Notes under the pieces: model-generated | What the model was told of the DNA's origin: nothing | Database searches by the model: none | Seen by the model: only the letters and a program-made list of their open reading frames with translations | Part shown: one piece after another, positions 23,897 to 33,046 of the stretch | Numbering within the stretch: position 1 is the first letter of the stretch | Layout: each line of letters starts with the position of its first letter | Translations under genes and position numbers: made by a program | Source: Egicoccus sp. AB-alg6-2 | GTDB lineage: Bacteria; Actinomycetota; Nitriliruptoria; Nitriliruptorales; Nitriliruptoraceae | DNA: 64,000 bases | Assembly: GCF_041821025.1 (NCBI RefSeq) | Contig: NZ_JBGUAY010000009.1 | Coordinates: forward strand, 62,001-126,000 | Direction: 5' to 3'

Positions 23897-24850
23897 TCAG
23901 GCCGTCGCCGGCGGTCGACCGGCGGCCTCGCGCAGGGCACGAAGCACGTGGTTGCCGTCGCCGAGGAGCCGCTTGAGATGCCGCTCGAGCCCGGCGATGG
24001 GGTACAGGTTCTGCGGCGCGCGACGGTCCTTGTGGGGACGCGAGGCGAACCGGGGGAGTCGGCCGGCGGCGAGGTCGGCCAGCCGCGCCGCCTCGGCGAC
24101 GCCCACGTCGGCCGATGCCTCACAGCGCACGATCCCCGCCCAGGGATGGTCGCCGCCGTACGGCAACCGCTGATACCAGGAGAAGCGCGTCCACGACGAC
24201 TGGGCCAGGAACAGCGGGGTGCGCTCACCCGGGGCCAGCGCACCGACGACGTGCCGGACCTCCTCGGGCAGGTAGGCGACGTGGTGGGTCTTGACGTAGC
24301 CGATGGCGTGGGGGACCTCCACCGAGCCGTCCAGCGGGCCGTCGAGGACGAGCAGGCCGACCTCGCCCACGCCGTCGGGCCAGGCGAGGCGATCGAGCAG
24401 GCGGCGCTCCAGGCGCCGCAGGCGCTCCTGCATCCCGCGCTGCAGCGCGGCCGGGTCGTCGTCGGCGACCGCCCGGGGCTCGAAGCGTCCGGCCCGCGTC
24501 TGCAGTGGGGCGAACCCCGCCGGCCCGATGAGCAACCGCTGCACCTCGGTGGTGGTGATGGTCGCCTTGTCCCCGGCGCAACACACCGCACCCGCGGCGA
24601 TGGACACGGCCGCGGCCTGCCGAACGACGCCGGCCGGCGCGTCGTCGGCGCCCCAGACGAGGCCCTCGACCCGACGCACCCCGTCGACGAAGGCGACCGG
24701 TGCGGCGTCGCCCTCCGGAGGTCGGCGCGGTGCCCACCGGGCTGCTGCCACCTCGACGTCGGGATCGACCTCGCCCGGACCCGCCGGCAGGTCGTCGCCT
24801 CCGCCGGGGCCGCCCATCTCGGGTGCCCAACTCTCGACCGCCAGCTTCAC
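23897..24850 (-). CDS. nurA: NurA-domain 5'-3' nuclease
   Basis: A 317-residue protein with two NurA-like metal motifs: VAFVDGVRRVEG (D56) and LLVLDGPLDGS (D170). The C-terminal part holds KTHHVAYLPEEVRHVVGAL and HPWAGIVRCEAS, also seen in bacterial NurA-like proteins. GTG at 24850 overlaps the sbcC stop (GTGA), making it the last gene of the sbcD-sbcC-nurA set. In archaea NurA works with the HerA ATPase and Mre11-Rad50 to resect broken DNA ends; a HerA-like gene lies 6.5 kb upstream on the same strand. The family call rests on motifs and context, without a search. Confidence 0.72.
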   Translation of the reverse strand: MKLAVESWAPEMGGPGGGDDLPAGPGEVDPDVEVAAARWAPRRPPEGDAAPVAFVDGVRRVEGLVWGADDAPAGVVRQAAAVSIAAGAVCCAGDKATITTTEVQRLLIGPAGFAPLQTRAGRFEPRAVADDDPAALQRGMQERLRRLERRLLDRLAWPDGVGEVGLLVLDGPLDGSVEVPHAIGYVKTHHVAYLPEEVRHVVGALAPGERTPLFLAQSSWTRFSWYQRLPYGGDHPWAGIVRCEASADVGVAEAARLADLAAGRLPRFASRPHKDRRAPQNLYPIAGLERHLKRLLGDGNHVLRALREAAGRPPATA

Positions 24851-31303: not shown

Positions 31304-33046
31304 TCAGAACGGCAGTCCGGAGCCTTCGCTGTCGAGGTCGGCGAAGGGGTCGTCGGGCTGGGTCACGAGCGCGCCTTCCTCGCGTGGCGGACCCTCGCCG
31401 GCCTCGGACGGGCGGGTCGCCCACGCCGGGAAGGGGAACTCCACGACGAGCGGGACCGGCAACTGCGGCTGGCTCACGATCATCGTGCCCGGCTTGACGA
31501 TCGTGGCCCGCTGCCGGTGCACCGTTGGCAGGAACCCGTACTCCTCGCGGGCGGCCTCGGCGGCGTCGAGGCGGCCGACGACGCGGATCGCGGAGTTGGC
31601 GACCACCCGCCGCTCGACCTCGGACGCGGTCTGCTGGGCCCCGATGAGGATCATGCCGAGCGAGCGTCCGCGCTCGGCGACGTCCAGCAGGATCTCCTTG
31701 ATGGGGGAGGTGCCCTCGCGTGGGGCGTACTTGTTGAGCTCGTCGAGCACGATGAAGGTCAACGGGTCCGGGCTGCCGGCGCGTTCCTTGGCCTCGAACG
31801 CCCGCTGCAGCACGACGCCGACCACGAACCGCTTCGCGCGGTCGTTGAGGTTGTGGATGTCGACCACCGTGACCTGGGCGTCGTGCGAGATCGTGTGCTT
31901 CCGCGGGTCGGCCAGGTCGCCCCGGACGAGGTGTTCGAGATGGCGTTGCGCGCCGTACAGGCGTCGCACGAACGCGTTGACGGTGCCGATCCCGACCGCC
32001 CGGCCGGCCCACTCGGGCGCCGTCAGTTCGTCCTGGACCCGGGCGGCGATCAGGTCGATCAGCTGGCGGAAGGTGCGCGCCGACTCACCGTCGATGGAAA
32101 CCGCCCCGTCCCCGATCGCGACCGCCTCGCGCTGCAGCTGGGCGGTGACGTTGTGCACCACCATCGTGTACTGCTGGCGGTCGTCGCCCGCGTCGGCGAA
32201 CAAAAACGGCAGCAGTCCGTCGCGGCAGAACTCCTCGAGCGACCAGGCGAACGAGGTGATGCCCTCGCTGCGGGCGCCGGTGTCGGGTGCGGCACTGCTC
32301 GCCCCGCGGCGCGGCGGTGCCCAGAAGTCGACGGACCTGAAGGCGCTCGCAGGCAGCCCGAGCGCGGCGTATCGGTCGCGTTGGGTGTCGTCGAGCTTGC
32401 GGTTGGCGTGGTCGAGGAACAGCAGGTCCTCGCCCTTGACGTTGAAGATCAGCGCCTTCGCGTTGTGCGCCGCCGGCACCACGCCCGAGGTGAACAGGCT
32501 GTGCAGCAGGAAGGTGGCGTAGGTCGTCTTCGTCGCGACCCCCGACACGCCCGAGATGTTGACGTGGGCGCCGCGCGTACCGTCGAGGAACTCGAGGTCG
32601 ACGAACACCGGCTGCCCGTCCCGCGACAGACCGGCCGGCAACCGCGAGGCCATGCGGTCGAAGAACAGCGCCTGGTCACGGTCGTCGCCCTCCGCCTTCA
32701 GCACCGCCTGGCCGGGCAGCGGCGGGACGAACACCTCGGGTTCGAACCGGGTGCTGAGCACCTTGGCCGCCTCGGCGACCTCGGCGGGAAGCACGCCGTC
32801 CTCGATCAGGAACACGTCGGAGTCGAAGCGGGCACCCTCGTGGCGCGCGCGGACCTGGCTGACGATGCCGTAGATCATGACCGGGTCCCGGCCGGGCGGG
32901 GTCCGCTGCAGCGCCACGACGTCGTCGAGCTGGAGGAAGCGCTCCGGGGCGACGCCGACCCAGAATTCCAGGGGCGTCGCGTCCTCGGTCCCGATCACGC
33001 GGCCGACGAAGTCGGGCCGGTCCTCGGGCGCGGTCGGCTCGGACAC
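31304..33046 (-). CDS. HerA-like ATPase/helicase with HAS barrel
   Basis: A 580-residue protein. The N-terminus (FVGRVIGTEDATPLEFWVGV, FLQLDDVVALQR) is a HAS-barrel as in HerA. The P-loop reads GVSGVATKT (residues 166-174), keeping Lys-Thr but lacking the usual Gly before Lys. Walker B is TFIVLDELNKYAPREG, followed by GMILIGAQQTASEVERRV, a HerA/FtsK-type sensor region. HerA forms hexamers that drive NurA nuclease on DNA ends. GTG at 33046 follows GAGGAG. The nurA, sbcC and sbcD genes are on the same strand downstream. Confidence 0.8.
   Translation of the reverse strand: MSEPTAPEDRPDFVGRVIGTEDATPLEFWVGVAPERFLQLDDVVALQRTPPGRDPVMIYGIVSQVRARHEGARFDSDVFLIEDGVLPAEVAEAAKVLSTRFEPEVFVPPLPGQAVLKAEGDDRDQALFFDRMASRLPAGLSRDGQPVFVDLEFLDGTRGAHVNISGVSGVATKTTYATFLLHSLFTSGVVPAAHNAKALIFNVKGEDLLFLDHANRKLDDTQRDRYAALGLPASAFRSVDFWAPPRRGASSAAPDTGARSEGITSFAWSLEEFCRDGLLPFLFADAGDDRQQYTMVVHNVTAQLQREAVAIGDGAVSIDGESARTFRQLIDLIAARVQDELTAPEWAGRAVGIGTVNAFVRRLYGAQRHLEHLVRGDLADPRKHTISHDAQVTVVDIHNLNDRAKRFVVGVVLQRAFEAKERAGSPDPLTFIVLDELNKYAPREGTSPIKEILLDVAERGRSLGMILIGAQQTASEVERRVVANSAIRVVGRLDAAEAAREEYGFLPTVHRQRATIVKPGTMIVSQPQLPVPLVVEFPFPAWATRPSEAGEGPPREEGALVTQPDDPFADLDSEGSGLPF

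Follow-up and report, generated by a model that had tools for sequence, protein, structure and literature searches.

A predicted Deinococcus-type HerA–NurA nuclease–translocase linked to bacterial-type SbcCD genes in an actinobacterium that also carries an AddAB-type gene pair

The window analysed here is a stretch of 64,000 nucleotides from contig NZ_JBGUAY010000009.1 of an Egicoccus genome. Six genes on its minus strand run from herA to nurA, as follows.

31304–33046, minus strand: herA, predicted Deinococcus-type HerA dsDNA translocase, 580 aa, GTG start
30528–31196, minus strand: GNAT acetyltransferase gene (PF13302, 90.7 bits), between herA and sbcD
28612–30558, minus strand: gene for a secreted or lipoprotein-like protein (PF04122, CW_binding_2, 14.7 bits, sub-threshold against a cut-off of 24.9)
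27306–28523, minus strand: sbcD, Mre11-type nuclease, 405 aa
24847–27309, minus strand: sbcC, Rad50-type ATPase, 820 aa
23897–24850, minus strand: nurA nuclease, 317 aa, GTG start

The sequence-only reading of this DNA had described sbcD, sbcC and nurA as joined by four-base overlaps, with herA on the same strand around 2.8 kb upstream of sbcD, and its coordinates are exact. ATGA is common to sbcD and sbcC, GTGA is common to sbcC and nurA, and two same-strand genes occupy the 2.78 kb between the 3' end of herA and the start of sbcD. Intergenic gaps within the six-gene run are no longer than about 108 bp, so that, judged by spacing, transcription from herA to nurA as a single unit is possible. 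A promoter and terminator scan of the region from 23.4 to 33.4 kb gave no signal exceeding that of shuffled sequences. Exact GAAC-N4-GTTC (SOS) sites occur in the window only at 8478, 10935, 22081 and 44519; none lies within the cassette, and thus SOS control was not seen. When up to one mismatch is allowed, this motif is found at 40 places in the window compared with 20 in shuffled sequences (none of 100 shuffles reaches 40), an excess that may represent either codon usage or a genuine motif. The G+C contents of the four cassette genes (herA, sbcD, sbcC and nurA) are 71–76%, compared with 71% for the window, and are uninformative as to recent acquisition.

The herA product is closely related to the HerA protein of Deinococcus radiodurans (drHerA; 7f6d, 7wrw and 7wrx), with which residues 9–310 and 318–550 align (phmmer E 3.1e-153) across the HAS barrel, the RecA-like core and the helix bundle. 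No Pfam match was obtained for this protein. Its P-loop, GVSGVATKTT, is nearly identical to the GISGVATKTS of drHerA, and the Walker A lysine and threonine, the Walker B aspartate and glutamate, the trans arginine and the DNA-contact arginines are all present. K173/T174, K204/D207, D435/E436 and R461 (K175/T176, K217/D220, D487/E488 and R513 in drHerA) are invariant in an alignment of 128 rows, and R443 (R495) and R500 (R552) are kept in 119 and 117 of these rows, respectively. The positions at which mutation abolished resection or catalysis in D. radiodurans (PMC9960219) are conserved here. One difference is at E152, which aligns with R154 of drHerA, a proposed gamma-phosphate contact. The best FtsK-type models (T7SS EccC/EssC) reached E-values of only 0.11–0.19, against around 3e-153 for drHerA, so that the ATPase is a HerA, as the sequence-only reading had proposed, rather than an FtsK/VirB4 protein. 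Membership of the anti-phage branch (Sir2-HerA, DUF4297-HerA) was also considered and rejected: NF042943 gave 12.2 bits against a cut-off of 800, and in the profile search the best solved anti-phage HerA (8xau) matched weakly (E 7e-5), compared with 5e-195 for drHerA. PADLOC matches to the 'mad8' and HerA models were weak and at the superfamily level only.

The assignment of the 317-aa protein to NurA likewise held, and no non-NurA family emerged. The protein matched drNurA (7f6d_H) at E 4.3e-20 with phmmer and at E 1e-45 with a small profile; a 34-row profile matched 7f6d_H at E 2.4e-47 and the Thermotoga maritima NurA 1zup at E 2.4e-16. The Pfam NurA model (PF09376) suits this bacterial branch poorly: the window protein scores 12.7 bits (cut-off 21), and a match at E ≤ 0.01 is obtained for 22 of 34 relatives. 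D56, K187 and R277 correspond to the catalytic D53, K201 and R309 of drNurA and are conserved in 102–104 of 104 rows; W8 also maps to a residue of relevance in D. radiodurans, and the mapped residues as a whole are invariant or nearly so. An AlphaFold2 model (mean pLDDT 88.9, pTM 0.87) has the predicted fold of NurA. It aligned with bacterial NurAs at Z 24.1 (1zup) and Z 23.1 (7f6d_G), with archaeal NurA chains at Z 10–15, with TdpAB at Z 13.5–13.8 and with endonuclease V at around 10.

SbcD exceeded the cut-off of TIGR00619 (173.6 bits against 77.65) and also matched PF12320 (SbcD_C); D8, H10, D48, N83, H84, H185, H226 and H228 are invariant in 122 rows, and it is the sole SbcD match in the genome. 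SbcC is a short protein of 820 aa that scored 262 bits with TIGR00618, under the cut-off of 478.5, and contains the Walker A motif GPTGAGKS, a CPVC zinc hook at 386–389, LSGGE and the Walker B motif FLDEGF, with key residues conserved in 102–104 of 104 rows. For both proteins the bacterial SbcCD models score far above the archaeal Mre11/Rad50 models.

The locus had been called archaeal-style in the sequence-only reading, and the archaeal herA-mre11-rad50-nurA operon does cluster the same four functions and shares the NurA fold. However, SbcC and SbcD here score as bacterial, and HerA and NurA lie on the Deinococcus-type bacterial branch; thus the cassette is archaeal-style in gene content only. 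Searches of the PDB by sequence matched no archaeal HerA or NurA chain, strong matches being confined to the proteins of D. radiodurans and T. maritima.

The cassette occurs beyond the Egicoccus organism and is common in its phylum. Among 396 actinobacterial species genomes, 76 (about a fifth) have a HerA ortholog, defined as a match of at least 200 bits, and 73 of these 76 also have NurA; no ortholog-level NurA was found in the 396 genomes without such a HerA. In Actinomycetota and Gemmatimonadota all four genes are linked in nearly every independent locus with enough flanking DNA, so that the linkage is not a matter of chance. Two arrangements prevail among the genomes in which HerA and NurA share a contig. 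In order A (herA-sbcD-sbcC-nurA; 17 genomes) NurA is downstream within 6 kb, and in order B (nurA-herA-sbcD-sbcC; 45 genomes) it is directly upstream of HerA; in six genomes, including that of the window and its genus mates, the two are farther apart. A quick HerA tree built from 102 rows, with some long branches, has all of order A on one side of a single branch and all of order B on the other (SH-aLRT 96). Gemmatimonadota and a few metagenome-assembled genomes (MAGs) assigned to other phyla nest inside order A; this placement suggests that the four-gene unit has been transferred, with binning errors possible for the MAGs. MAGs labelled Nitriliruptorales and Euzebyaceae are among the nearest named relatives of the window HerA. 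One family (f15; L152–L155) has a far more divergent HerA and NurA (around 150 and 40 bits), and in each of the four loci read there SbcD and SbcC come next. Of all loci read, only L164 departs clearly from the pattern, having a distant HerA (208 bits) for which partner genes were not found.

Within the class to which the window belongs, SbcD lies beside or near the pair in 10 of 10 HerA-positive genomes examined, and an above-cut-off SbcD occurs in one of 15 HerA-negative genomes (Fisher p 3e-6, with shared ancestry ignored). The four genes appear to have been gained and lost together in this class; outside it, SbcCD is often found without HerA–NurA.

The distance between herA and sbcD in the window might indicate that only sbcD, sbcC and nurA cooperate and that herA serves another process, such as chromosome handling. 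In addition to the 2.8-kb gap here, HerA and NurA are 14–18 kb apart in the genus mates and on different contigs in two family members. We consider such a separate role very improbable, since elsewhere in the phylum herA directly adjoins sbcD or nurA, no NurA in the sample occurred without a HerA, and translocation-coupled resection by drNurA needs drHerA (PMC9960219). In two genus mates and one further family member, the space from herA to sbcD holds a homolog of the lipoprotein-like gene (28612–30558), and in a sister family herA is around 0.6 kb from sbcD. The simplest reading is that an ancestral order-A cassette was interrupted in the family of the window. The lipoprotein-like gene is probably outside the module, and the GNAT gene (30528–31196) is probably an insertion outside it as well; a search with the window protein did not find it between herA and sbcD in the genus mates.

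The sequence-only reading had set the cassette against the AdnAB or RecBCD on which most actinobacteria are thought to rely, implying that it stands in for these enzymes, and had proposed a check of the rest of the genome for them. On another contig (contig 7) we found an AddAB-type pair: a UvrD-type helicase of 1121 aa with a C-terminal PD-(D/E)XK domain, and an AddB-like protein of 1057 aa, the two genes overlapping by 4 nt. This finding already contradicts the notion that HerA–NurA–SbcCD is the sole resection engine replacing a missing AdnAB/RecBCD, to which we give hardly any credence even though Deinococcus–Thermus, the group with the characterised bacterial HerA–NurA, is described as lacking RecBCD and AddAB (PMC9960219). 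The cassette is therefore an additional end processor and no substitute. At least 42 of 53 HerA-positive actinobacterial genomes, compared with at least 11 of 25 HerA-negative ones, contain a frame of 880 aa or more that matches PDDEXK_1; the genomes compared were hand-picked and non-independent, and an AddB/Adn-type nuclease was judged by frame length. It is certain that the cassette and an AddB/Adn-sized nuclease coexist in most of the HerA-positive actinobacteria sampled; given the frame-length criterion and the choice of genomes, these counts exclude replacement and leave a positive association between AddAB and HerA unproven. As for the further suggestion that the organism may use HerA–NurA with SbcCD, the genes and residues are there, but not instead of the AddAB-type enzyme. 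Resection is a plausible use of the cassette.

Three end-joining genes lie divergently from herA, on the plus strand, between 35577 and 38437.

35577–36524, plus strand: ATP-dependent ligase (PF01068, 97.6 bits)
36600–37421, plus strand: Ku (PF02735, 159.2 bits)
37208–38437 (ORF), plus strand: LigD-type Prim-Pol (PF21686, 264.8 bits)

Ligase, Ku and Prim-Pol are separate genes, and this operon, which the sequence-only reading had not reported, is outside the resection cassette. In L166, L167 and L168, which represent two genus mates and one member of the family, these genes are arranged alike next to herA, and elsewhere in the Egicoccus genome there are a second Ku and two further ATP-dependent ligases. 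That the cassette and the divergent operon form one co-regulated double-strand-break island in this family is a doubtful proposition; if it were true, a single locus would set the ratio of resection to end joining in the cell. Between the neighbour of herA and the ligase gene, a GNAT domain is fused to a Glycolipid_bind domain in a protein encoded at 34473–35600 on the minus strand.

The organism probably has a complete Deinococcus-type HerA–NurA nuclease–translocase that is linked to bacterial SbcCD and works in parallel with the AddAB-type enzyme and the Ku/ligase/Prim-Pol set. By analogy with D. radiodurans and archaeal biochemistry, SbcCD would bind a broken end, clear it, also where it is hairpinned or blocked by protein, and hand it over to a HerA–NurA complex. 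A HerA hexamer would then thread the duplex end and, powered by ATP hydrolysis, pump it into a NurA dimer seated on the HAS barrels of HerA, where the strands would split. Cutting of the 5' strand by NurA would leave a 3' tail for RecA, and the whole would act beside, not in place of, the AddAB-type enzyme and the end-joining set. In the literature we found no biochemistry or genetics on an actinobacterial HerA–NurA member. The effects of deletion on damage survival in D. radiodurans and Thermus are modest or contradictory (PMC9960219), and AddAB could carry out the bulk of resection here.

A different function was proposed in a 2026 study of HerA–NurA in the archaeon T. kodakarensis, which doubts a resection role in favour of an antiviral one (PMC12977600). 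Applied to the present cassette, the main activity would be the degradation of invaders: HerA would pump linear foreign dsDNA into NurA, where both strands are destroyed, in the manner of HerA-Sir2, HerA-DUF4297 and the NurA-like TdpAB, with SbcCD helping to open ends. The nuclease chain of TdpAB is structurally related to the NurA model (8wfd_G, Z 13.8; a literature search for TdpAB and NurA together found nothing), the cassette is patchy within one family, and on a Streptomyces plasmid it is beside a Wadjet-like set and near a restriction endonuclease. However, this HerA is far nearer to drHerA than to the solved anti-phage HerAs, as the profile E-values given above indicate, and the conserved neighbour is the Ku/ligase/Prim-Pol operon, not defence genes. 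None of ten neighbouring ORFs in the window has a PADLOC defence match, and a defence island around it was accordingly rejected. We regard anti-invader degradation as an unlikely main function, and favour HerA–NurA–SbcCD as a parallel end processor.

Of the known systems, HerA–NurA of D. radiodurans (7F6D, 7WRW and 7WRX) is among the closest, with near full-length homology of both proteins and the same Walker A and B, trans-arginine, DNA-contact and NurA catalytic residues. In contrast with the present locus, its genes are unclustered with the Mre11/Rad50 homologs (PMC8708640), and AddAB and RecBCD are absent (PMC9960219). AddAB, AdnAB and RecBCD are alternative bacterial end-resection machines, but combine a UvrD-type motor with a PD-(D/E)XK nuclease and are unrelated to HerA and NurA. 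Bacterial HerA–NurA, its occurrence in Actinobacteria and the linkage to sbcDC in Oceanithermus profundus are already published; the report on the last, from 2017, describes a herA cluster in which sbcD and sbcC lie downstream (PMC5448004). Compared by its published text alone, that cluster resembles the actinobacterial order B, whereas here the genes run in a permuted order, herA-sbcD-sbcC-nurA, and two others have been inserted behind herA. No paper describing the linked actinobacterial cassette was found in a literature search that was short on subscription journals.

The biochemistry of bacterial HerA–NurA comes mainly from Deinococcus, which lacks AddAB and in which the pair is not linked to sbcCD. 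The four-gene unit is present in culturable Micromonospora, Actinoplanes and Glycomyces, usually alongside an AddB/Adn-sized nuclease. Thus, whether bacterial SbcCD hands ends over to HerA–NurA, and what reason a cell would have for keeping two resection engines, become testable in ordinary laboratory strains.

The cassette was also seen on plasmids. In the Streptomyces sp. BB1-1-1 plasmid (L006 1004–24000), order A is near the Wadjet-like set (TIGR02678/02679/02680 and DUF2397), an ImmA/IrrE-family peptidase and the restriction endonuclease. A conjugative plasmid of the cyanobacterium Sphaerospermopsis (L007 3946–10946) carries order B, nurA-herA-sbcD-sbcC.
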